From the IMG/VR virus record IMGVR_UViG_3300020172_004948, positions 1 through 22,006 of that record: 22,006 bases of DNA; one strand, 5' to 3'. Source of the stretch: a virus. The notes under the pieces were generated by a model. It was not told the DNA's origin. It saw nothing but the letters and a program-made list of their open reading frames with translations, and did not search any database. Shown in pieces: positions 1 through 21,766 of the stretch (within the stretch, counting starts at the first letter, position 1; each line of letters starts with the position of its first letter). The translations under genes and the position numbers were made by a program.

Positions 1-862
1 ACTCTGGAGAGCAGCATTCTGTTCCCATCTGCGAAGTTATTATAGAGTGGTAGTTTCTCCTGTCGAAAGAGACGCATCTCTTTACGTCTTTAAGATAGTC
101 AACGCTTTCGAACACGTCGGCGAGCGCGTGCGAGCCGATTCCTCCTCTTTCTTCTCCGATGAAGAAGTAGTATAGGCCAGGAACGTTGTTTTCCATCATA
201 TAGAGCATGACAGTCGTTCCTGACTTGTCGTCTGCGCCAAGCACAGAGCTTCCGTCTGTGACGATTATCTCGTCTGCACCTTCTTTTACGCTAAGGAGAT
301 TGGTTATCATCTGCTTTCTGTCGGCGGTGTCTAGGTGGCACGTGAACATAGTCTCGGTGTGTCCGCCTATTATGGTATAGTAGTTTCCTACGATGTCTTT
401 CTGAAGCGTAGGAAGGAACTGAAGAACCTCGTCTTCGTTTCCGTGCGGATAGGTCTTGGTGACGAGAGAGAGGAAAGTCTTTCTCGGGTTCTTAGGGCTA
501 TACTCGAATTTCTCTACTTTTATTGGAGTTCCGTCTTGGTTTGGCTTTCCGTTCTTAATGCTGTTGTAGCTTTTCGAGAATTTGCTTATCTCGAAGTCGT
601 TTATGACGTTTTGGAAGAAGTATCTGATGAACTTTCCGATCTTCATATCGTTCTTCGACCCGTCTTCGAACGAGACACTGAAGCACCAGTCTACTTTGGA
701 GACGTCTGCTTTCTTTATCTTAAGTCCGTTGAAATAGTCCGCGTCTGGCTCGGTCATCCACATAAGCTCGAACGCGACGTAGCTGTTTTGCTTTTCTAGC
801 TTTTTTAGAATATCCAGAAGCTCTTTGGAAAACTCTACTCTTATTGGTTTTTTTTCTGCCAT
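1..862 (-). CDS. M20/M28-type metallopeptidase (3' end beyond window)
   Basis: Reading the minus strand from ATG at 862 gives 287 uninterrupted codons that run off the left edge, so the C-terminus is missing. The second half has the metal-ligand pattern of co-catalytic zinc exopeptidases: CHLDTAD (H176, D178), LGADDKSG (D211/D212), FIGEERGGIGS (E237/E238) and a later SFDRR (D267). GADDK followed by EE is closest to the M20 (PepT-like) and M28/M42 clan. Residues 1-150 do not look like the peptidase core and may be a phage-specific N-terminal domain. A TTAATATATA element 16 bases upstream suggests late expression, so the enzyme may be a virion or lysis-stage protein; its substrate is unknown. 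The fold is clear from the motifs, but the exact family is not. Confidence 0.75.
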   Translation of the reverse strand, partial: MAEKKPIRVEFSKELLDILKKLEKQNSYVAFELMWMTEPDADYFNGLKIKKADVSKVDWCFSVSFEDGSKNDMKIGKFIRYFFQNVINDFEISKFSKSYNSIKNGKPNQDGTPIKVEKFEYSPKNPRKTFLSLVTKTYPHGNEDEVLQFLPTLQKDIVGNYYTIIGGHTETMFTCHLDTADRKQMITNLLSVKEGADEIIVTDGSSVLGADDKSGTTVMLYMMENNVPGLYYFFIGEERGGIGSHALADVFESVDYLKDVKRCVSFDRRNYHSIITSQMGTECCSPE

Positions 863-877
863 ATCTTTTTGTTTTGT

Positions 878-1276
878 TTATATATTAATATCGTGTGTGT
901 TGACATAGTCTACGCTGACCTGTCCGTCGTTCATCCCTGGCTCTTTCTTTACGAATCTCCTCTGGCAATAGACAACTGTCACACTTTCTTCATTCTTTGC
1001 CTTGCTATTCTTCTTGGCGAACTCTGCAACCTTTTTAAGAGTTGTCTCGGTAGGAATAATATCTTTTGTTGCAATGATAACATGACTTCCAGGAATTCCC
1101 TTTGCATGCATCCATATATCAGAAGAATCTGCTATGTTGAACGTAAGATGGTCATTAGACTTAGCATCTCCACCGACATAAACCGTGAATCCGTCTATAT
1201 CCATTTTTTTGATATTTGGGAAGATGTTTTTCTTTCCTTCTGACAAGAATCTCTTGAAATTGTTTATATTTTTCAT
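878..1276 (-). CDS. stand-alone NFACT-R (DUF814) domain protein
   Basis: 132 residues, almost all NFACT-R domain. After a short N-terminus the protein reads GFTVYVGGDAKSNDHLTF, then DIWMHAKGIPGSHVII, a TTLKKVAEFAKKNSKAK helix, VTVVYCQRRFVKKEPGMNDG and QVSVDYV. These match the conserved NFACT-R blocks (G-x-N-D, D-W/L-W-x-H, PGSHV, AA..YS, V.Y...+.V+K..G..G.V). In RqcH/Rqc2/NEMF and Fbp this domain binds the tRNA anticodon arm and 60S/50S RNA. Here it has no NFACT-N, HhH or coiled-coil parts. The first residues, MKNINNFKRFLSE, resemble the T4 capsid-targeting signal (MKTYQEFIAE) and end in an LxE site of the type T4 gp21 cuts. A late element sits 4 bases before the ATG. Family call is strong; role is unknown. 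Confidence 0.82.
   Translation of the reverse strand: MKNINNFKRFLSEGKKNIFPNIKKMDIDGFTVYVGGDAKSNDHLTFNIADSSDIWMHAKGIPGSHVIIATKDIIPTETTLKKVAEFAKKNSKAKNEESVTVVYCQRRFVKKEPGMNDGQVSVDYVNTHDINI
879..888 (-). promoter_or_regulatory. late promoter element TTAATATATA
   Basis: Exact copy of the recurrent element, 16 bases before the ATG of the peptidase gene. It lies inside the end of the NFACT-R gene: the last sense codons and the TAA stop of that gene (878-880) are read through the same bases. Confidence 0.65.
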
Positions 1277-1280
1277 AGGT

Positions 1281-1290
1281 TATATATTAA
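1281..1290 (-). promoter_or_regulatory. late promoter element TTAATATATA, 4-base spacing
   Basis: Exact copy, separated from the NFACT-R ATG by only ACCT. If it acts like a T4 late -10 box, transcription starts at or next to the ATG. Confidence 0.65.
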
Positions 1291-1301
1291 GTACAGAAAA
1301 C

Positions 1302-1331
1302 AAAAAAGCTGCTCTTTAAGAGCCGCTTTTT
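1302..1331 (-). terminator. rho-independent terminator after the endonuclease gene
   Basis: A-rich/T-rich flanks around stem AAAAGC-GCTC / GAGC-GCTTTT with one mismatch and a short loop. It overlaps the stop codon (1316-1318) of the minus-strand gene and precedes the late element at 1281. Confidence 0.6.
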
Positions 1332-3253
1332 AAAATCATTTTTTCGAATTTTATCTTTCCACAATCATATATTTTCAGTATATTATTTTCTAAGGCATAT
1401 TTAGATTCGGTCAATATCGTTTTTGTTTTTGATTTCTTGTACCTGGATTTGTGTACTCTTTGTCCATCTACTAGATATTTATAATCAGGTTGGCTTTCTC
1501 CTATTTTTTTAAAACCAAGCTTGTAGTATAGATTTCCTATTGACCAATCTCTATCGGCATAACTTATTACACGACTCGGATTATATGTTTTTACAAAATA
1601 TTCAAATAGTTTTGATGCACCACCAACCACATTTGTGTTTCTACTACTACAAAATCTATTTAGATTCCATCCATTATCTGACATCAAATTTCTACCCTCA
1701 AAGTGATCAAAAGTCATTATACTAACTAATATTTCATTGTGAAATAATCCTAGCTTAAGACTGCTGTTTACTTTGCCTTGTATATGGTTTTCCTCTAAAA
1801 AAGAAGAAGATTCTTTGGTGTCTACCTCGGCTATATTGCATTTTCTTGCAAAAATTTTGATATTTGTGTTGCTGACTAGATTTGATATTTGAGATTCGAC
1901 TACTTCTCTTCTAAATATCCAATCGTCTTCCCATATATGTACGATTCTAATTTCTTTGTCAAGAAAGTGTTTTGTTTTGTCGATGTGATAGTTTTTTTCC
2001 TTGTACTTGTTCGAGTGCCAATATAATCCATTGAATTCGAATCCTAATTTTAGTTCTGGCAAATAGATATCGATTTCTAGCCCGTCTCTATATCCTGGTA
2101 TTATCTCGCCACTATATACGCTTTCTATAAATTCATATAAAACTTTCTCTTTGATTGAAGATTTTGCTGATATAGGATGGCATATAGTGCATAGTGGATT
2201 GTTTTCTTTATTTCTTTTTATATAATTGTCGACATATATTTCAAACGTGTGTTCATTTCCACAGTCACAATTGAACAAGCTCAATGATGAATCGATATAT
2301 TTTATATAAAATGGATTCTTTGCGATATCATATGTCTTTTTTCTATAAATTTCGGATTTTTGTATGTTGTCAACGCCGTGCTTCTCTATGCTCATCAGTT
2401 TAATCTTTTCGTTGTAATCTGATGATTTTGTATGGTGGTCGACTCCATACCTTTCTATATTTGTTTCTTTTTTCTTTTCTTTGAAATCAGAGCTTTGGCA
2501 ATACCACTCAGCGCCATATCTGTCGAGATTTGTCTTCTTGACAATATCTTTGTATTCATTCGTTTTTGAGTAATGTGTTACACCATGCTTCTCTAAGTTT
2601 GTAATCAAAGTCTTTTCTTTATAATCGTCGGTTTGCGTATACCAGTCGACACCATATTTTAAATTATTAGTCTCTACACACATATTCTTATATTCTTCTG
2701 TTTGTGAGAAATGTTCTTTTCCGTATTTTTCTAAAATGGACTCTCTACGCTTTTCTTTAAAAATTTCTAGTTGTGATATATGGTCGACACCATACTTTTC
2801 TTTGATATTTTTTTTCCATTTTTCCTTAACATCTTCGTTTTGGAATGACGACTTTGTACCATATCTTTCCAAATTGGTTTCTTCTGCCTTCTTTTTGATA
2901 TTCGAATTCTTTGCGACATTGGTAACTCCATACTTTTCTAAGGTAGTCTTTTGTCTTTTGTCTTTTGTTGCCTTATCAGATTGTGCACATTTTGCAGAGC
3001 AATATTGCCTATATCCGTCTAACCAATTCTTGTTAAATGTCGTGCCTTTGCCACATTTGCAAGTAAATGGTACGTCTATATCATTTGTCCAATGCCACAT
3101 CTTTTCTTTAAATGATATATTATCGATATTTATACAAAAATCGTCTATTGACTTTTTTAAATCAGTATAATTCTTGTCAAAGAATGATTCTCGCAATCTA
3201 GACGACGAGCCATCCAGTATTTCTAATATAGTTTTTTTTCTATCTTCTCTCAT
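1316..3253 (-). CDS. VSR-like putative homing endonuclease with 23-residue YGV repeats
   Basis: 645 residues. The N-terminus has a zinc-ribbon-like CKCGKG...CSAKCAQ (about 65-90). Next come nine tandem 23-residue units built on TNLEKYGVxxxxQ (about 103-309), then a second CDCG...CTIC pair (about 329-358). Around 365-450 is a VSR/EDxHD-type nuclease: LEIDIYLPELKLGFEFNG, YWHS, a HIDKT segment and HIWEDDW. The C-terminal part (about 465-615, with NHIQGK, GGASKLFEYF, ISYADRDWSIGN and YYKLGFKK) resembles a GNAT-like domain often fused to such phage nucleases. Proteins of this architecture are usually free-standing homing endonucleases, and the repeats probably bind DNA. It lies between the capsid terminator and the NFACT-R gene and has its own late element 4 bases before the ATG. 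A non-homing role is possible. Confidence 0.72.
   Translation of the reverse strand: MREDRKKTILEILDGSSSRLRESFFDKNYTDLKKSIDDFCINIDNISFKEKMWHWTNDIDVPFTCKCGKGTTFNKNWLDGYRQYCSAKCAQSDKATKDKRQKTTLEKYGVTNVAKNSNIKKKAEETNLERYGTKSSFQNEDVKEKWKKNIKEKYGVDHISQLEIFKEKRRESILEKYGKEHFSQTEEYKNMCVETNNLKYGVDWYTQTDDYKEKTLITNLEKHGVTHYSKTNEYKDIVKKTNLDRYGAEWYCQSSDFKEKKKETNIERYGVDHHTKSSDYNEKIKLMSIEKHGVDNIQKSEIYRKKTYDIAKNPFYIKYIDSSLSLFNCDCGNEHTFEIYVDNYIKRNKENNPLCTICHPISAKSSIKEKVLYEFIESVYSGEIIPGYRDGLEIDIYLPELKLGFEFNGLYWHSNKYKEKNYHIDKTKHFLDKEIRIVHIWEDDWIFRREVVESQISNLVSNTNIKIFARKCNIAEVDTKESSSFLEENHIQGKVNSSLKLGLFHNEILVSIMTFDHFEGRNLMSDNGWNLNRFCSSRNTNVVGGASKLFEYFVKTYNPSRVISYADRDWSIGNLYYKLGFKKIGESQPDYKYLVDGQRVHKSRYKKSKTKTILTESKYALENNILKIYDCGKIKFEKMILKSGS
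2327..2947 (-). repeat. nine tandem 69-base units coding 23-residue YGV repeats
   Basis: The translated units align without gaps on a core of aromatic-Gly-(Val) preceded by TNLE(K/R) and followed about ten residues later by Tyr/Phe-Lys-Glu-Lys. DNA identity between units is modest, so this is an old protein repeat and not a recent duplication. Two further units of the same type occur in the protein at 8459-8851. Confidence 0.75.
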
Positions 3254-3367: not shown

Positions 3368-5113
3368 TTAGTTTAAATACTGAGCGTTGTCAGTTACAAC
3401 TAAAGTCATAAACTGTTTTTGTGGAAACCATCCCACTTCGGCAACTGCGTATCTAGATCTTAGTAACATTCTTGGAGCAAAAGTAGCTTCAGAAATAACT
3501 GAGATAGATTGTGCCATCAAGTAAGGTACGAAGATGATACCTGGTTGGTCTGGGTTGTTTTTTCTACCCAAAACGATTCTGTTGTCGTTGTATTTCATGT
3601 ATGGATCAACATAGATAGCGATATCTCCGATTGAACCTACTGGATATAACTGACCTTGACCGTTTAATTTAGATTTAACTGGGTTGATAGTGTAACCAGC
3701 GATATCTTGTAAAGCAGCAGCTAAACCTCCGTTTGTTACAAGGTATTGAGCAGGTCCTACTCTTCCTTCTGTAGCGATGAAGTTAGAAGCGTGAGCGATT
3801 TTAGTGATCAATTTTCTTTGAACAGCGTGAGTAGTCTCTCCACCAGCCATAGCGTTAACATAAGATGTATCTAAATCGAAGATTGTAGATGCAGTAGCAG
3901 AAACTGAAGTTTTACCAGTAGCTAAAGGCGCAGAAGTTCTGTTTAATGAACCCATTTCGAAGATTTTCGCAACGATTTGTTTAGAGATTGTTTGAGACAA
4001 TTCGTTAACAAGGATAGATTCCATTTTTTGAACGATATCCATACCAGTGTTAGCTTTGATGTCTTCGATCTCAGTTCTTCTTAAAGCTGAAGATACTTCG
4101 ATAGTACCAACTGCAACTGTTTTAGAAGAGATTTTTGGTCCGATAACTCCTGCGTAAGAATCATCGTCTTCTGATCTTGACATTGGGTAAGCACCTTGTG
4201 CAGCAGTAGGAGGAACAGCTCCGAAGTTTGTTGAGAAACCTGGGATATGGTCTTCTAATGCAGATACTAGCTCAACAGTTCCTGTTGCAGCAACGTTACC
4301 TACAAGGACGATTTGTGCAGTCATTGCGGCAGTAGAGTTGAAAGTGTTTCTTGTTGCGTCGAAATCCCATAATGTAGTAGCACTTGCAACAGCAGTGTGT
4401 GCAGTGTTAGCTTGTCTGAATGCTCTGAAGATTGGGAAACCATCGATTCTTGAGAATCCTAAGAACTCAACAACACCTGCTCTAGAACCACCGTTGATAT
4501 CGTCTAATCTAGAGAAAGTTCCTGCAGTAGGAGCTCCAGAAATAGTAGAAGCAGTTGCGATAGTCGCGAACAATCTACCACCGTTCAATCCACCAGTTAC
4601 TTCGCTAACAGCGTTGTATGTTGCAGCAGTTTTTGCAAGCTCAACTCTGATCGCAGCAGAAACTGTAGTCAAAGTAGCAGATGCTAAGTTTAATTTGAAA
4701 ACTTGTGGTCTTTCTGATTGATCACCTAATCTAGTGTCATCGTATTGGAAATCGATGTAAAGTAAGTCGATTTTCGGACCTGGAGTTGGCTTAACAGCAA
4801 CTAAGTCTAAACCGATTGTTTGAGCAGCGATTTTCATAGCTACTGGCAATAAGTTTTGTCCTACGTCTCCTGATCCAGTTACTGCACCAGCAGCTAAACC
4901 GTTAGTTTGTCCTGAATAATATCCAGGTTGTGCAGCCAATACACCACCCATACCAGCAACGTTAGATGCGTTTACGTATGCATTTTCGTTGATTGAGTGA
5001 AATTCAGCGTATTCAGCCATCCATTCAACTCTATCACCTGTAACTCCCATGTTCTCTAAAACCGGAGCCCATTTCTTTGTAGCTTTCGCTTTGTCTATTC
5101 TAATGTGTGACAT
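3368..5113 (-). CDS. major capsid protein, T4 gp23-like
   Basis: 581 residues from the preferred start. The N-terminus (MSHIRIDKAKATKKWAPVLE) and the region NLLPVAMKIAAQTIGLDLVA followed by VKPTPGPKIDLLYIDF match the gp23 family, where LLP, D-(I/L)-V-x-V-x-P and TGP are conserved. The C-terminal stretch with RYAVAEVGWFPQKQF is also typical. It forms the hexamers of the prolate or isometric head. T4 gp23 loses its N-terminus to gp21 at an IxE or LxE site, and SINE near residue 44 is a candidate cut here. An in-frame extension to 5194 exists, but it would translate the A-rich leader and the promoter-like element. The protease-scaffold gene lies directly upstream and a strong terminator directly downstream, as expected for the head module. 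Confidence 0.93.
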   Translation of the reverse strand: MSHIRIDKAKATKKWAPVLENMGVTGDRVEWMAEYAEFHSINENAYVNASNVAGMGGVLAAQPGYYSGQTNGLAAGAVTGSGDVGQNLLPVAMKIAAQTIGLDLVAVKPTPGPKIDLLYIDFQYDDTRLGDQSERPQVFKLNLASATLTTVSAAIRVELAKTAATYNAVSEVTGGLNGGRLFATIATASTISGAPTAGTFSRLDDINGGSRAGVVEFLGFSRIDGFPIFRAFRQANTAHTAVASATTLWDFDATRNTFNSTAAMTAQIVLVGNVAATGTVELVSALEDHIPGFSTNFGAVPPTAAQGAYPMSRSEDDDSYAGVIGPKISSKTVAVGTIEVSSALRRTEIEDIKANTGMDIVQKMESILVNELSQTISKQIVAKIFEMGSLNRTSAPLATGKTSVSATASTIFDLDTSYVNAMAGGETTHAVQRKLITKIAHASNFIATEGRVGPAQYLVTNGGLAAALQDIAGYTINPVKSKLNGQGQLYPVGSIGDIAIYVDPYMKYNDNRIVLGRKNNPDQPGIIFVPYLMAQSISVISEATFAPRMLLRSRYAVAEVGWFPQKQFMTLVVTDNAQYLN

Positions 5114-5208: not shown

Positions 5209-7374
5209 TTATACGTTTTTGAATCTTTCCATAATAGCAGTAACGTCATTGTCAGACAGCTTATCTTCTTGGATAAGAGCTTCGTGAGAAACTAGTTTTT
5301 TAGATACTGATTCGTTTTTTTTGAGGTTTCTAGTCGCCCAGAAATGCTCAACTTGACCTTCGGTCGTTAGAACTTCTGCAGGATATAATCTAGCTTGTGA
5401 AATGATAGATTTTTTCGCTGATTCGTTCATTTGTTCCCAGATAGCCTTTGTGTTCTCAGGCATCATTCTGATTACTCTTTCTTCAAGAGATTCGTTTTTA
5501 GCAGATAGCGCTTCAGAGATCAATGACAATACTTCTTTTTGTGTGAAGTAGCTGCTTTCGTTTATGTGCAACTTTACTGTATCTTGTTCTTCGTTAGTCA
5601 AAGCATAGTAGCTATCAACTTGTGATTTAGACATGAACTTCAAGAAATTCAAATCTGATGTCTCAGAAACTTTACGTTTTTTAGCTTCTTCGATTAATTT
5701 ATCAATAGATTCTGACAATTCTGAATCAGAACTACCGTTTACCTCATATTCGTTTGGTCCACAGTCTTCATCTTCTTCTACTTCTTCGTTTTCTTCGTGT
5801 GCGTGAACATGCTCCGGTGCAATTTCTGCGATTCCGTTTTCTTCTTCGTTTTCTTCCTCAGAAGCATAAGCATTTTCTTCTACTTTTTCTTCTTCGCTTT
5901 CTTCCTCAGAAGCATAAGCATTTTCTTCTGCATTTTCTTCTTCTTTCTCTTCTTCAAGATCTTCGAATCCAGCTGCATTCAATGATGGGAAAGCTCCTTC
6001 TGATTCGTTCAATTTTCCACCGTTTAATTTCTCAACGATCAATCCTTGGTAAGAGATAGATTTGTCTAAGTTCTCAGCGATATATTCAGAGTAAGCGATG
6101 TTGTCATCTAAGTGTTCAGCGATGTATTCAGAGTAAGCGATGTTACCTTCAACGTGCTCAGCCAAGTATTCAGAGTAAGCGATAGAGTTATCAACGTGCT
6201 CAGCGATATACTCGCCATAAGAGATAGATTTGTCTAAGTTCTCAGCGATATATTCAGAGTAAGCGATGTTCTTGTCTAAGTTTTCTGCCAAGTATTCAGA
6301 ATACGCGATGTTCTTTTCTAAGTTCTCAGCAACATATTCTGTGTAAGAAATGTTTTTGTCTAAGTTCTCAGCAACGTACTCAGAGTAAGCGATGTTTTTG
6401 TCTAAGTTTTCAGCAACATATTCTCCGTAAGCGATAGACTTGTCTAAGTTTTCAGCTAGATATTCAGAATAGTTTACTGCCTTTTCAAGATTCTCAGCTA
6501 AATAATCGTTGTGTTTGATCAATTTGTCTGTAGTTTCTTTTAAAGATTTGTTTTCGTTTACCATGATTTGAACTTTCTCTGCCAAATAGTCTAAATATTT
6601 AACTACTTGTGAGTTAGTGCTGTTCAATTCATCATAATACTCAAGCAATTGCTCAAGTTTTTTAGGGTTCATATTCCCTTTAGTAATGGCGGTCTTAACT
6701 TCTTTTTTAGTTGACGCCAACTCTTTAACCAAATACTGAGAGTAATCGGTCAGTTGTTGTTTAGTAACAAATTCGTTGTTGTTCATATTAAATAACTCTT
6801 CCGTTTTTGACTCATTGGATAAATCGTATATCCTAAAGTTAGATTGTGGGTCTTTGTAACCTAGCGACTCATTAAGAATCTTTACGCTCATCTTCGCCGA
6901 TGCGAAACCTGGGTCCGCAACGATGTCATAAGTGAATAGCTTCTTCAATGATACGGTTCCGTCAGATTCGGTAATACCGGCGGCTCTTGATGAAACGAAA
7001 ATAGGACAACCATCGTCAACCAACGATTTTGCCTCTTTTCCCCAATAAGTGCTCAATAATCTGATTTCACCTTCAACCAAGTTTGATTCTTTTACGTAAT
7101 TAGCTTTCGTTATTACGTGAGAAGCTCTTGAAAGCGAAGTATCGAAAACATCCGGGTGATCGAATTCACCGTAGACAATTCCAAGATTGTTCATTCTTTC
7201 GTTCATCTCCTCTAAAGCAGGAAGGAATTTTGCAGCAGTATATATTCTTTCGTTTCGGTTTTTGACTCCGAACTCAGTAAACGTACCACCTAAAATATAG
7301 TCCTTCTTACCAGTGCTTGAACTTTCTCTTACAAGAGAGTTCGTTGAATTTTCTACAATTAGAACTGGTTTCAT
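5209..7374 (-). CDS. prohead protease fused to a repeat-rich scaffold (gp21/gp22-like)
   Basis: 721 residues. Residues 1-170 are an S80-type prohead protease: VYGEFDHPDV (H73), SRASHVI, CPIFVSSRAAG (S128/S129) and VADPGF, in the order seen in T4 gp21 (about 210 residues). The remaining 550 residues replace a separate core protein: a lysine-rich helical region (200-285), eleven 14-residue units of the type YVAENLDKNIAYSE (about 289-443), a strongly acidic Glu-rich block (about 470-545) and a helical C-terminus (about 560-721). Fourteen residues equal two heptads, consistent with a coiled-coil rod. The likely role is an assembly core with a built-in protease that digests itself and cleaves the capsid protein. 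The gene lies directly upstream of the capsid gene. The start is supported by the late element 34 bases upstream. Confidence 0.87.
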   Translation of the reverse strand: MKPVLIVENSTNSLVRESSSTGKKDYILGGTFTEFGVKNRNERIYTAAKFLPALEEMNERMNNLGIVYGEFDHPDVFDTSLSRASHVITKANYVKESNLVEGEIRLLSTYWGKEAKSLVDDGCPIFVSSRAAGITESDGTVSLKKLFTYDIVADPGFASAKMSVKILNESLGYKDPQSNFRIYDLSNESKTEELFNMNNNEFVTKQQLTDYSQYLVKELASTKKEVKTAITKGNMNPKKLEQLLEYYDELNSTNSQVVKYLDYLAEKVQIMVNENKSLKETTDKLIKHNDYLAENLEKAVNYSEYLAENLDKSIAYGEYVAENLDKNIAYSEYVAENLDKNISYTEYVAENLEKNIAYSEYLAENLDKNIAYSEYIAENLDKSISYGEYIAEHVDNSIAYSEYLAEHVEGNIAYSEYIAEHLDDNIAYSEYIAENLDKSISYQGLIVEKLNGGKLNESEGAFPSLNAAGFEDLEEEKEEENAEENAYASEEESEEEKVEENAYASEEENEEENGIAEIAPEHVHAHEENEEVEEDEDCGPNEYEVNGSSDSELSESIDKLIEEAKKRKVSETSDLNFLKFMSKSQVDSYYALTNEEQDTVKLHINESSYFTQKEVLSLISEALSAKNESLEERVIRMMPENTKAIWEQMNESAKKSIISQARLYPAEVLTTEGQVEHFWATRNLKKNESVSKKLVSHEALIQEDKLSDNDVTAIMERFKNV
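5840..5940 (-). repeat. 51-base duplicated segment in the acidic block of the scaffold
   Basis: A 26-base identical core (5856-5881 and 5907-5932) recurs at a 51-base interval, coding EENAYASEEE twice. It is an in-frame internal duplication inside Glu-rich sequence. Confidence 0.7.
6045..6512 (-). repeat. eleven tandem 42-base units in the scaffold gene
   Basis: Period 42 bases, coding 14-residue units with core Y(L/V/I)AE(N/H)(L/V)(D/E)xx(I/V)xY. Several neighbouring units are nearly identical at DNA level, so copy number may vary by slippage or recombination. The frame is kept throughout. Confidence 0.85.
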
Positions 7375-8271: not shown

Positions 8272-8281
8272 TATATATTAA
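8272..8281 (-). promoter_or_regulatory. late promoter element TTAATATATA, 4-base spacing
   Basis: Exact copy separated from the ATG at 8267 by AATC. Confidence 0.62.
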
Positions 8282-8458: not shown

Positions 8459-8851
8459 ATGATACTTACAAGAGAAATTGAAATAAAAATAAACGAGTCT
8501 AACTATCAGTACTACGAAGAATTGGGATATGACATCTCGATTGGCGAGACCATAACCATACCGGTAGAGTTGCTGCCGAACGGATCGCATTATAAAGTAA
8601 AGTGCAAATGCGACGGCTGTGGAATAGAGAAAGAAGTCATATACAAAAACTACCTAAAATACGACAACGAAAAGTGGGGAGACTATTCCTGTAGAAAATG
8701 CTCGGAGACCAAGCGAAAGGAAACGCTGAGAAAGAACTTCGGAGTAGACTACCCCATACAGAACAAAAAAGTATTGTCGAAGATGAAAAACACCCTTATA
8801 AAGAAATACGGGGTCGACAATATCTCAAAAAAGAACAAAAAAGATGAATAA
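8459..8851 (+). CDS. zinc-finger protein with two YGV repeats, no nuclease domain
   Basis: 130 residues. A four-cysteine zinc finger (CKCDGCG about 50-56, CRKC about 79-82) is followed by two 23-residue units (ETLRKNFGVDYPIQ and NTLIKKYGVDNIS). Both elements match the N-terminal, presumably DNA-binding, part of the endonuclease at 1316-3253. It may be a remnant of a homing endonuclease or a small DNA-binding protein derived from one. The reading frame is intact and the gene overlaps the RNase R start by 8 bases, so the two are probably translationally coupled. No Shine-Dalgarno sequence precedes the ATG. The domain call is moderate; the function is unknown. Confidence 0.6.
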   Translation: MILTREIEIKINESNYQYYEELGYDISIGETITIPVELLPNGSHYKVKCKCDGCGIEKEVIYKNYLKYDNEKWGDYSCRKCSETKRKETLRKNFGVDYPIQNKKVLSKMKNTLIKKYGVDNISKKNKKDE

Positions 8852-10727
8852 AATCAAAGAAGGCGACATATTCGAGTCGCAATTGGAATTCTCCATGTCG
8901 GGAAACGCCACCATAAAGATAGACGGCAGGGAAATCTTCATACACAAGAAGAAGACCGCCAACGCGCTTCACCTGGACACGGCAAGAGTCGAGATATTCC
9001 AAGGACAGAAAAAGCTTGAGGGAAAAGTGATTGAAACGATATCCAGATACAAGACGGAATTCGCCGGAACAGCACAGGTAAACGGCGAGACCGTATTCGT
9101 TGTACCAGACAGCAACAGGATGATAGTAGACTTCTATATAAAAGGAAGCGAGAATATAGAAAACGGACAAAAAGTCCTTGTAGAGTTTCTAGACTGGGAT
9201 CTCGGAAAGAAGTCACCAAGAGGAAAGATCAAGAAAATTCTTGGGCGTTCAGGAGAAAACAACGCAGAGATGAACGCGATAATGTACGAATACGGCCTAC
9301 CAGTCGAATTTCCACAAGAAGTCATAGACGAATCAGAGCTCGTTCCCGAAGAGATTAGCGAGGACGAGATAAAGTCGAGAAGAGACATGCGATCCACCGT
9401 CACTATAACGATAGACCCGGTAGATGCCAAGGATTTCGACGACGCCATATCTATCGACATGAGAGATCTAAACAACATAGAAGTCGGTATTCACATAGCA
9501 GACGTCTCGCACTACGTAAAGTCAGGGACAGAGCTGGACAAAGAAGCGTTCAAGAGAGCCACTTCGGTATATCTAGTAGATAGATGCGTGCCTATGCTCC
9601 CAGAGAGGCTCTCAAACGGGATATGCTCTTTGAAGCCAAACGTGGACAGGCTTGCGTTCTCGGTAGTTCTAACTCTAGACAAAGACGGAAACATAAAAGA
9701 CACTTGGCAGGGAAAGACCGTCATACACTCTGATAGAAGGTTCGCATATGAAGAGGCACAAGATATAATCGAAGGGTTGGATGGAGACTATTTCAGAGAA
9801 ATCAGGCAGCTAGACTCTATGGCGAGAAAAATAAGAAAGTCCAGGATAAAAGAAGGATCTATCGAGATGGGTGGATTGGAAGTGAAGTTCGTTCTGGCAG
9901 AAGACAACAAAAAGCCGATAGGAGTCTACTTCAAAGAGCAGAAAGAAGCGAACAAGCTTATCGAAGAATACATGCTTCTGGCGAACAAGTCTGTCGCCAA
10001 GCGGCTTGCCACAGACCAATGGCACAACGTATACAGAGTTCACGACCGACCGAACGGAGAAAAGCTGGCAGCACTTCAGAGCATATGTACCAACTTTGGA
10101 TACACGCTAGAGCTAGACGATGAAGGAGACTCGCTGAAGAAGAACCTAAACCAGCTTCTAAAGGAAATCAAAGGAAAGCCAGAAGAAAACATGATCGAGA
10201 CGCTGGTTACTAGATCGATGTCAAAAGCGGTATATACCATAAAGAACATAGGACACTATGGATTGGGTTTCACTCACTATTCGCACTTCACATCGCCGAT
10301 AAGGAGATATCCCGACCTCATAACTCACAGGATACTATTCGATAGACTGACCACCAACAAGCAGGGAAATCCTACGGTCATAGAAGATCAGGCAAAATGG
10401 TGCTCTAGCAGAGAGCTGATAGCATCCAAGGCGCAGCGAGAATCTATAAAGTACAAGCAGATTGAATATCTGCAAGACAAAGTCGGGCAAGTATTCGACG
10501 GAATCGTAACCGGAGTGATGGAGAGAGGAATCTATGCGGAAATAGAGGAAAACAAATGCGAGGGCATGATAAGGCTAGAGACGTTGAACGGAAAATGGAC
10601 GGCGAACGTAGACAAATACTTCGCGAGCAACGAGCTTGGAGACCAGATCAGGCTTGGGGATCCTATTAAAGTGGTGGTGGCATCGGTCGACCTAGAAAAA
10701 AGGCAGATAAATTTCACAAGATTCTAA
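8844..10727 (+). CDS. rnr: RNase R/RNase II family 3'-5' exoribonuclease
   Basis: 627 residues. N-terminal OB (cold-shock-like) domains occupy about 1-150. The RNB catalytic domain begins near 175 with TITIDPVDAKDFDDAISI, whose D191, D197, D199 and D200 correspond to the four metal-binding aspartates of RNase II. HIADVSHYV, PMLPERLSNGICSLKP and GLGFTHYSHFTSPIRRYPDL complete the signature; the last is the RNR form. A C-terminal S1 domain (about 535-627) ends the protein. Compared with E. coli RNase R it lacks the N-terminal helix-turn-helix and the Lys-rich tail. It degrades RNA processively from the 3' end, including structured RNA. The gene is second in a plus-strand island without a late promoter element, so early or middle expression is likely. 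All catalytic residues are present. Confidence 0.93.
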   Translation: MNKIKEGDIFESQLEFSMSGNATIKIDGREIFIHKKKTANALHLDTARVEIFQGQKKLEGKVIETISRYKTEFAGTAQVNGETVFVVPDSNRMIVDFYIKGSENIENGQKVLVEFLDWDLGKKSPRGKIKKILGRSGENNAEMNAIMYEYGLPVEFPQEVIDESELVPEEISEDEIKSRRDMRSTVTITIDPVDAKDFDDAISIDMRDLNNIEVGIHIADVSHYVKSGTELDKEAFKRATSVYLVDRCVPMLPERLSNGICSLKPNVDRLAFSVVLTLDKDGNIKDTWQGKTVIHSDRRFAYEEAQDIIEGLDGDYFREIRQLDSMARKIRKSRIKEGSIEMGGLEVKFVLAEDNKKPIGVYFKEQKEANKLIEEYMLLANKSVAKRLATDQWHNVYRVHDRPNGEKLAALQSICTNFGYTLELDDEGDSLKKNLNQLLKEIKGKPEENMIETLVTRSMSKAVYTIKNIGHYGLGFTHYSHFTSPIRRYPDLITHRILFDRLTTNKQGNPTVIEDQAKWCSSRELIASKAQRESIKYKQIEYLQDKVGQVFDGIVTGVMERGIYAEIEENKCEGMIRLETLNGKWTANVDKYFASNELGDQIRLGDPIKVVVASVDLEKRQINFTRF

Positions 10728-14262: not shown

Positions 14263-14790
14263 ATGATAAATTCCAAGCCCAACAACAGCAAATACCATGG
14301 TGGAAACTTCATACCGACCAACAAAGACAAAGTGCTAAAGCTGAACGCGCAAGGCGGAGTCTATTACAGAAGCTCTTGGGAGCAAAAGATAATGGTCTGG
14401 TTGGATCTTAAAGAAGAAATATTCCAATGGGGCGCAGAATGCCTAGAAATACCTTATCAGATGACTCACTTCGAAAACGGAGACTCGAGAATAAAGGCAC
14501 ATAGATACTACCCAGACTTCTTCTACAGAATGAGAGGAGCAGACGGCGTCTTGAAAGAAGTCGTGGTCGAGGTCAAGCCTATGAAAGAATACAAGATGGT
14601 TATAGCTCTTACAGAAGGCAAGCTCACGGTTCCCGATAAAGGAATGAAGAAGCTAAAAAGCTTTGAGTACGACCTGAAGATGGCTTATAAGAACAAGCAA
14701 AAATGGGAGACGATGATAAACTGGTGCAACAAAAAGGGATTCTCGTTCATCATAATAACCGAGGAAAACCTAAAAAACTTTAGTGTATAA
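14263..14790 (+). CDS. head completion protein, T4 gp4-like nuclease fold
   Basis: 175 residues. VYYRSSWEQKIMVWLD (about 33-48), FQWGAECLEIPY, HRYYPDFFYRM (about 80-90) and EVVVEVKPMKEY (about 99-110) are the gp4/gp50 signature. PD at 84-85 with E103-x-K105 forms a PD-(D/E)xK-type active site. The C-terminus WETMINWCNKKGFSFIIITE is likewise typical. T4 gp4 acts after packaging, trimming or sealing the DNA end so that the tail can join. The ATG at 14263 lies directly after the shared promoter. The gene converges on the membrane-protein gene, overlapping by 11 bases. It is the only plus-strand gene in this part of the head region. Confidence 0.9.
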   Translation: MINSKPNNSKYHGGNFIPTNKDKVLKLNAQGGVYYRSSWEQKIMVWLDLKEEIFQWGAECLEIPYQMTHFENGDSRIKAHRYYPDFFYRMRGADGVLKEVVVEVKPMKEYKMVIALTEGKLTVPDKGMKKLKSFEYDLKMAYKNKQKWETMINWCNKKGFSFIIITEENLKNFSV

Positions 14791-18594: not shown

Positions 18595-18604
18595 TATATA
18601 TTAA
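18595..18604 (-). promoter_or_regulatory. late promoter element TTAATATATA, 6-base spacing
   Basis: Exact copy separated from ATG 18588 by TCGGAT. Confidence 0.62.
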
Positions 18605-20228: not shown

Positions 20229-20879
20229 TTATTTTATAGGACAATTCGAAGCGGAGTAGATATATCTTTCATTTCTTTTTAGCTTCACACCCATCGCCAC
20301 TGCGGCGGTTTCGATATCGGTAAGGCATTCCCCATCAGCACCGCCTACGAGAATGACGTCTCGAACCTCATTCAATCCTTCATTTACGCTTTGTGCCTCG
20401 ACAACTTCCTCGAAAAGCTCATGCAGCTTCTTTGGCATGTGGTACCATTTATGATTGTTTGCAACATAGACTATGAGAGTTCCTTCGTTTGTTGGAAAGA
20501 AGTCTCCTTTCTTCAGCTCGTTAGCGTCTTCTTTTTCGCTTACTTCCTTATAGATGTCCGGGCTAAGAATTTTTTTGTAGAAGTCCGCATCCACGTCGTA
20601 GTTGTACCTCTTCTCGATAAGCTCTGCCTGGTTTGGAAAATGATATAGGTCTTTGTGTACTGGGATTTCAGGATCTTCATCATAGAGATAGTCCTTGTCG
20701 ACATTCTTCCCGTCGACATGATTGTCCCAGATTTGATAGACTCTATCGAATCTGTTGCAATATTTTTTCAGTTCGTTCAAATATGCGTCATTGAAAAATT
20801 CTTTGAACGATTTTTGTACATCAACTACAATAAGAATGTCTTTACTACTATGGCTTTCGAACGTTTTTAGGTATCTCAT
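20229..20879 (-). CDS. nicotinamidase-like cysteine hydrolase (isochorismatase fold)
   Basis: 216 residues. ILIVVDVQKSF gives D20; AELIEKRYNYDVDADF gives K90; LVGGADGECLTDIETAAVAMG gives C185. Together these are the Asp-Lys-Cys triad of the isochorismatase-like family. WDNH (D52, H54) and H75 or H80 fit the metal site of nicotinamidases (D-x-H...H), favouring nicotinamide to nicotinate over isochorismatase chemistry. An insert of about 65 residues between Lys and Cys (NEGTLIVYVANNHKWYHMPK and surroundings) is longer than usual. The N-terminus MRYLKTFESH precedes the fold and resembles the signal shared with three other proteins here. A late element variant ends 4 bases before the ATG, so the enzyme appears to be made late, unlike typical metabolic takeover genes. 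The substrate is inferred only. Confidence 0.72.
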   Translation of the reverse strand: MRYLKTFESHSSKDILIVVDVQKSFKEFFNDAYLNELKKYCNRFDRVYQIWDNHVDGKNVDKDYLYDEDPEIPVHKDLYHFPNQAELIEKRYNYDVDADFYKKILSPDIYKEVSEKEDANELKKGDFFPTNEGTLIVYVANNHKWYHMPKKLHELFEEVVEAQSVNEGLNEVRDVILVGGADGECLTDIETAAVAMGVKLKRNERYIYSASNCPIK

Positions 20880-20903: not shown

Positions 20904-21131
20904 TTAAAAATGTCTTGATAGTATAAAATCAACGGCTTTGATTTCTTTATCATAGTTGCTTATATCAAATTGATCAACAGAATCATCTCTCAAGTTTTTT
21001 AGCCTAAATCTCCATTCAAGAAGTTTATCAACGTCACCTGGTTGGAATTTGTTTTTAAAATATCCTTTATAGGTTGCAGTATTTATAAACTCTAGTTCTT
21101 TAAAACCTTCAAATAATTTTATATACTTCAT
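20904..21131 (-). CDS. small protein with MKxIxxFExF N-terminus
   Basis: 75 residues, no recognised family. It begins MKYIKLFEGFKELEF, the clearest copy of the N-terminal sequence shared with the 878, 20229 and 21218 genes, and KLFE would be an LxE-type protease site. The rest is charged and probably helical (KLLEWRFRLKNL). A late element lies 21 bases upstream, with an ATT-repeat leader (21132-21150). A head-internal protein is a reasonable guess. Confidence 0.6.
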   Translation of the reverse strand: MKYIKLFEGFKELEFINTATYKGYFKNKFQPGDVDKLLEWRFRLKNLRDDSVDQFDISNYDKEIKAVDFILSRHF

Positions 21132-21217: not shown

Positions 21218-21766
21218 TTAAACTGGAAGTTCTTCTTCACCTTCTTCTTCTTGTGCCTGACCTTCTTCTTGTCCTTGACCTTCTTCTTGTCCTTGACCTT
21301 CTTCTTGTCCTTGACCTTCTTCTTGTACTTGACCTTCTTCTTGTCCTTGACCTTCTTCTTGTCCTTGTGGCTCTTCAAACTCGCCTTCTTGTACCTGAGC
21401 TTGTGGTTGAGCTTGAGTCTGAGCTTGCGGTTGAGCTTGTGGCTCGCCTTCAGTCTGTACCTGAACCTGTCCTTGACCTTGTGGTCCGCCCATTAAAGCG
21501 TTTCCAGGAATCTTCTCAACGTCTATGTTGTTAAGAGTTACCCATTTTACAATTTCTTCAGCGATGTCAACATCACCGAAAAACTGGCGAAGGTTTTTTC
21601 CTGTCGTGTCTTTAACTTTCTTAACATAAGAATTTATCAATGATTGAGAAATGTCGATCATAGTTTTAACCTTATAGATATCGTTCACTTGAAGAACAGC
21701 TTCTTTGATTATCTCTTCTCTGTTTTTTTGAACTCTAAAACTTTCAAATTGTCTGATGTGTTTCAT
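21218..21766 (-). CDS. protein with MKHIRQFESF start and Gln/Glu/Gly repeat tail
   Basis: 182 residues, unknown family. Residues 1-12 carry the shared N-terminal motif. Residues 13-95 form a helical domain (IIKEAVLQVNDIYKVKT, INSYVKKVKDTTGKNLRQFF). From about 98 the protein is low complexity: Gly/Gln, then alternating Gln-Ala/Pro, then about six (G/V)QEEGQ units and an acidic end. It has its own late element and terminator, which suggests substantial expression. An acidic, disordered tail and a capsid-targeting-like start suggest a head-internal or scaffold-accessory protein. That is inference. Confidence 0.62.
   Translation of the reverse strand: MKHIRQFESFRVQKNREEIIKEAVLQVNDIYKVKTMIDISQSLINSYVKKVKDTTGKNLRQFFGDVDIAEEIVKWVTLNNIDVEKIPGNALMGGPQGQGQVQVQTEGEPQAQPQAQTQAQPQAQVQEGEFEEPQGQEEGQGQEEGQVQEEGQGQEEGQGQEEGQGQEEGQAQEEEGEEELPV
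21238..21385 (-). repeat. 18-base tandem repeats coding (G/V)QEEGQ
   Basis: About six near-identical 18-base units, followed by looser Gln/Ala/Pro codon repeats up to about 21480. The units are in frame inside the 21218 gene. Confidence 0.8.

Follow-up and report, generated by a model that had tools for sequence, protein, structure and literature searches.

A stand-alone NFACT-R protein in the head-gene module of a huge-phage lineage bears a capsid-targeting-like N-terminal tag

The window, the whole 22,006-nucleotide stretch of viral DNA that was analysed, encodes a 132-residue NFACT-R protein whose original coordinates (878-1276) are confirmed, which starts with ATG on the minus strand, and whose neighbours are genes for building the phage head. 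The features of this part of the window are as follows.

2-862, minus strand: M28-like metallopeptidase, incomplete at the window end (Pfam, PHROG peptidase; constant downstream neighbour)
878-1276, minus strand: NFACT-R coding sequence with N-terminal tag, 132 aa, ATG start (Pfam, NCBIfam, PDB, AlphaFold2, Foldseek)
881-1237, minus strand: predicted mature domain, residues 14-132, 119 aa, starting GKKNIFPNIKK (homologue alignment)
1082-1120, minus strand: core motif DIWMHAKGIPGSH, residues 53-65 (alignment of phage and cellular domains)
1238-1276, minus strand: capsid-targeting-like tag MKNINNFKRFLSE, residues 1-13, followed by G14 (disordered in the AlphaFold2 model; family alignment; comparison with T4 internal proteins)
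1281-1290, minus strand: late-promoter-like motif TTAATATATA, 5-14 nt upstream of the NFACT-R start codon
1316-3253, minus strand: DUF7487 ORF between the capsid and NFACT-R genes (Pfam; most relatives lack it here)
3368-5113, minus strand: major capsid protein of the T4 gp23 type, probable start MSHIRID at 5113
5209-7374, minus strand: prohead protease of the T4 gp21 type, fused to a coiled repeat scaffold

The identity of the domain is nearly certain. The Pfam model NFACT-R_1 (PF05670) matches residues 27-122 with 56.4 bits against a cut-off of 29.8 (E=5.2e-15), the match to the NCBIfam EfbA/RqcH models is confined to their C-terminal NFACT-R part, and a PDB search recovers B. subtilis RqcH (7aqc, E=6e-17). 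The AlphaFold2 model has a mean pLDDT of 89.7, with values of about 96 for residues 21-132 and below 60 for residues 1-20, and its top Foldseek matches are RqcH (8s1u and 7aqc; E=4e-12), FBPS and CCDC25. The proposal that a phage encodes NFACT-R as a stand-alone domain is borne out by the Pfam and RqcH matches and by this model, agreement with the RqcH fold being one of two checks named beforehand. The other, conservation in homologues, likewise failed to refute it: D53, I54, W55, M56, H57, K59, G63 and H65 do not vary, even when phage domains are compared with cellular ones. Dozens of residues, DIWMH among them, are invariant across 16 homologues, which rules out a degenerate remnant. In the same 16 aligned homologues the predicted mature protein is small and basic, with 118-120 aa and a pI of 8.0-9.7. 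PHROGs contains no family for the 132-aa protein.

The phage protein has the domain, fold and core motif of the NFACT family (RqcH/Rqc2/NEMF/FbpA), to which the bacterial RQC factor belongs, but with only 132 aa it lacks the NFACT-N, HhH and coiled-coil/M domains and the tRNA-selecting DR motif of RqcH, and it carries an N-terminal tag that RqcH does not have. NFACT-N (PF05833) was not found in the four phage records searched, two of which are complete genomes, and the protein is therefore not an RqcH. CCDC25 likewise consists of NFACT-R without the rest of RqcH, as do stand-alone proteins that Foldseek recovers among viral models (for example BFVD M1HME1, 110 aa), although these belong to a eukaryotic or algal-virus context; from the accession type we take the viral models to be probably those of eukaryotic viruses, M1HME1 being presumably from a chlorovirus.

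Searches by tblastn and IMG/VR scans identified 43 distinct phage homologues, with the huge phages LR745206 (634 kb) and LR756502 (642 kb) among the carriers. The Listeria, Enterococcus and Helicobacter matches that make up most of the phage-collection matches outside these two phages were set aside, as at 33-42% identity they resemble host RqcH or contamination. NFACT-R is absent from six related phages (the 636, 735 and 462 kb genomes, Lak-B5, MA9V-2 and pT24) and therefore marks one sub-lineage. Among the huge phage genomes of PMC7162821 the largest fall in the Mahaphage clade, and that paper predicts Bacteroidetes hosts for genomes above 634 kb. In a tree of 94 domains, which is indicative only because it rests on few columns, the phage sequences fall into a single clade (100/100), which branches together with RqcH of Bacteroidota (96/95), and the best reading of these sequence relationships is that the cargo domain was captured from a Bacteroidota RqcH. 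Of 148 Bacteroidota genomes, 113 have an NFACT-R match above the Pfam cut-off, almost always within an open frame of 490-800 aa; full-length RqcH-sized genes are thus common in this phylum, and the likely hosts own an RQC pathway.

The NFACT-R gene is almost certainly a late gene of the head module. Wherever a phage locus is long enough for its gene order to be read, the prohead protease/scaffold gene is followed by those for the major capsid protein, NFACT-R and the M28-like peptidase, and NFACT-R is present in 66 of 80 capsid-protein loci, with about five of the remainder ending at a contig edge. The protease and capsid proteins of the T4 gp21 and gp23 types occur in the same genome (PHROG 207, E=1.6e-30; PF07068, E=1e-27), together with a portal protein (PF07230), and the peptidase keeps the metal-ligand motifs HLD, ADDK, GEERG, FDRR and EH in its relatives. 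In the loci L219, L234 and L248 an unrelated protein of about 160 aa with a tag-like start (MRINSFLDFLSEA, MIIKRFSKYLE) occupies the NFACT-R slot, much as internal-protein genes replace one another among T4-like phages, and both proteins are found in seven other loci. The part fused to the protease at 5209-7374 (minus strand) is an extended series of near-perfect 14-residue repeats, YSEYIAENLDKNIA, and seems to be a scaffold built into the protein. The full-length DUF7487 ORF at 1316-3253 is probably a mobile insertion; a second, short DUF7487 fragment lies at 8459-8851 (plus strand), and both look like mobile endonuclease-type insertions. This fragment overlaps the start of a complete phage exonuclease of the RNase R/RNase II family with RNB, cold shock and S1 domains (8844-10727, plus strand), and a protein with a TnsA-like endonuclease domain is encoded at 14263-14790 (plus strand; PF08722, E=7e-13).

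The original prediction spoke of a late promoter, and a suitable motif, TTAATATATA, indeed lies a mere 5 nt from the NFACT-R ATG. The window has 17 sites of this type, well above the 4 expected, and the motif stands 5-25 nt upstream of many starts, for example at 879-888, 1281-1290, 8272-8281 and 18595-18604 (minus strand). Such sites are possibly late promoters that give nearly leaderless mRNAs.

What the original prediction overlooked, while correctly recognising the stand-alone domain, is the place of the gene in the head module and the N-terminal stretch with its cleavage motif. At the start of the homologues stands a brief run of basic and aromatic residues, closed by hydrophobic-x-Glu-small immediately ahead of the domain, in variants such as FLSE|G, FLNE|G, FNE|S, LFE|G and YFE|S. 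E13 is nearly invariant across the family, and [FYLI]xE[SGA] or FE[SG] immediately precedes the domain in 42 of 43 distinct NFACT-R proteins, the single exception (L014/L171) reading FFEK. Endings of the same hxE[S/G/A] kind mark the likely protease sites of the capsid and scaffold proteins. In the former an invariant HxINE|NA closes a propeptide-like N-terminus and is a candidate propeptide cut. In the protease/scaffold protein a conserved [LI]NE|SL follows the protease domain and KL[NF]E[SN] follows the repeats, where the alternation of N and F (LNES, LFES) parallels that of the tags (FNES, LFES).

In T4, IPII and IPIII begin MKTYQEFIAEA and IPI begins MKTFKEF; the first ten residues of IPIII suffice for packaging, with residues 4 and 7 serving in targeting and residues 8 and 10 in processing (PMC9026906). 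Because the phage motif is common to the capsid and scaffold sites and resembles the T4 internal proteins, the N-terminus of the NFACT-R protein is read, from its sequence pattern, as a putative capsid targeting sequence, and the prohead protease is predicted to cut after E13. Like IPI, IPII and IPIII, which are tagged, processed by gp21 and injected, the protein has a short basic/aromatic tag ending in hxE|small, and the gp21-type protease, the gp23-type capsid and a small basic cargo that is accessory and replaceable are all paralleled here. The differences lie in the tag itself, MK[YH]LKxFNES or MK[YH]LKxYKLFES in place of MKTYQEFIAEA, and in the cargo, which in the phage is a translation-related domain.

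The tag is not restricted to NFACT-R. Among ORFs of the 634 kb genome predicted with a simple greedy caller, the targeting half, defined as M[KR]x?[YHNWFD][LIVM]x(1-3)[FY], occurs at 93 of 907 N-termini where about 7 would be expected from internal Met, and 55 of those 93 also have the Glu motif hxE[SGA], against 3 of 2983 internal Met controls. The pattern was found in none of 400 ORFs of bacterial contigs and none of 260 ORFs of phage MA9V-2. As it was defined only once the data had been inspected, these controls carry more weight than any p-value. The tag type in this phage is MK[YH]LKxFNE|S, and a looser set of 88 tagged proteins falls into 56 BLAST clusters; Pfam assigned few functions to 50 of the tagged proteins (NFACT-R, NUDIX, M15 peptidase, DUF6576 and DUF6934). 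The NFACT-R tag of the 634 kb phage is itself degenerate (MIKKYKLFKEG) and fails the strict pattern. A TTAATATATA-like upstream motif is commoner at tagged genes of this genome (41/88 vs 156/819, p=3.5e-8). The window contains three more tagged ORFs on the minus strand, at 20229-20879 (MRYLKTFESH), 20904-21131 (MKYIKLFEGF) and 21218-21766 (MKHIRQFESF). The start of the first, DILIVVDVQKSF, resembles by eye a cysteine-hydrolase/isochorismatase, with no Pfam or PDB support.

NFACT-R is also found within larger proteins. In L003, L007/L008 and the 642 kb phage it is fused in frame behind a domain of about 100 aa without an obvious tag, and in L004 it follows another domain that is itself tagged at its start (MKNIITFKKYFES). 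The Glu motif before NFACT-R is retained internally in all of these fusions, and processing there could free the domain, while the tag could account for the targeting of the tagged forms only. Tenacibaculum phage pT24 (L301-L309) has a different common N-terminal motif, MRDIRDYIKESLE, MKDISVYINEKL and MRDITHYIKEEL (MRDI..YI.E..), which is perhaps a targeting sequence of its own and may be testable because pT24 has a named host. The tag is therefore lineage-specific, since its strict form does not extend to MA9V-2 and pT24 apparently uses a variant of its own.

Taken with the cleavage motif, the position in the head module and the tag make it most likely that the protein is packaged, injected and active early, and does not act solely as a late intracellular factor. 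From the sequence patterns we infer packaging, cleavage and injection, and packaging with trimming is probable. The gene would be expressed late from the head module, the tag would steer the product into the prohead core, and the gp21-like protease would trim it after E13, so leaving the basic 119-aa domain in the head to be injected along with the phage genome. In the new host the retained DIWMH/K/GSH face would bind structured RNA, with tRNA or the region of the large ribosomal subunit around the A-site finger as the likeliest ligand. It is in this region that the NFACT-R of RqcH sits, poorly resolved in cryo-EM structures (PMC8012679). The outcome at the onset of infection could be that host RqcH-dependent rescue is outcompeted or blocked, or that the ribosome is shielded.

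The originally proposed effects on ribosome rescue, tRNA or obstructed 50S subunits are compatible with the retained core and with RqcH-bearing hosts, and the fact that DIWMH, K59, G63 and H65 are the same in phage domains as in cellular ones speaks for the retention of a nucleic-acid ligand. That the injected protein acts on the ribosome or tRNA is put at an even chance, whereas a specific block of host RQC is doubtful; the ribosomal or tRNA target and the sense of the effect are speculative. Recognition of tRNA by RqcH depends on NFACT-N (PMC8373112), so that a lone NFACT-R is unlikely to select tRNA-Ala or to tail, and poly-alanine tailing on 50S-peptidyl-tRNA is not expected of it. Competition, capping or shielding is therefore likelier than rescue. 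The complete explanation, a packaged internal head protein of the T4 type with an RqcH-derived NFACT-R that is injected and hits 50S or tRNA, is the best of those considered and is held at evenly balanced odds.

The main rival to action on the ribosome or tRNA is DNA binding in the head, in which NFACT-R would have a packaged, structural job on the packaged DNA or the scaffold and no ribosomal target. It draws on the same tag and head-module evidence and accords with the basic pI of 8.0-9.7, with the PDB titles that describe CCDC25, a fold match, as solved bound to DNA, and with the proposal that T4 IPIII acts in head assembly. It is nevertheless unlikely, as the retained residues are those common to RqcH, and the 636, 735 and 462 kb phages and Lak-B5 build the same head type without NFACT-R, which is therefore not needed for assembly.

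The protein could instead stay unpackaged, as a late cytoplasmic translation factor that binds host ribosomes and helps or protects late synthesis, its N-terminal motif having another role. This is rather improbable: the late-promoter-like motif and the many translation factors of huge phages would suit it (PMC7162821), but a ribosomal role hardly explains a disordered tag that is common to dozens of unrelated proteins and ends in a motif conserved in capsid and scaffold proteins. The translation genes of huge phages, which include bS21, L7/L12, EF-Tu, RRF and tmRNA/SmpB (PMC7162821), are a means of interfering with host translation and rescue, as NFACT-R may be; NFACT-R differs from them in that it looks packaged.

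That NFACT-R brings the adjacent M28-like peptidase to ribosome-bound or rescued nascent chains is highly improbable. The genes adjoin wherever a phage locus extends far enough to include both, and the peptidase retains its metal ligands. Yet it is untagged (it starts MAEKKPIRVEFS) and has paralogues at other places in the 634 kb genome; moreover, the loci L219, L234 and L248 have a peptidase behind the other tagged protein. An A/T-rich translation-start leader acting at the DNA level, suggested by the A/T-rich codons for MKYLK in an A/T-rich genome, is rejected on codon evidence and has only the slightest probability, since tag codons vary as they do genome-wide, with five different Ser codons after the Glu, so that the signal resides in the protein, and the Glu shifts in position (8-13) while its chemistry is kept.

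The open literature searched contains no earlier report of NFACT-R or RqcH in phages, nor of capsid targeting in huge phages; NFACT is not mentioned in the main text of PMC7824862, PMC7162821 or PMC11165621, nor RqcH in that of PMC7162821. If packaged, the protein would be a rare instance of a phage head carrying a domain of a translation or rescue factor into the cell, and RQC in bacteria would then appear to be important to phages within minutes of infection. It is a tentative and less favoured proposition that huge phages of Bacteroidota use a T4-like targeting code to load dozens of tagged proteins into their heads for injection, including a conserved NFACT-R, derived from host RqcH and encoded beside the capsid gene, that disarms or redirects RQC from the first moments. 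The tag offers a concrete, testable code by which injected effectors may be predicted among the unknown proteins of huge phages.
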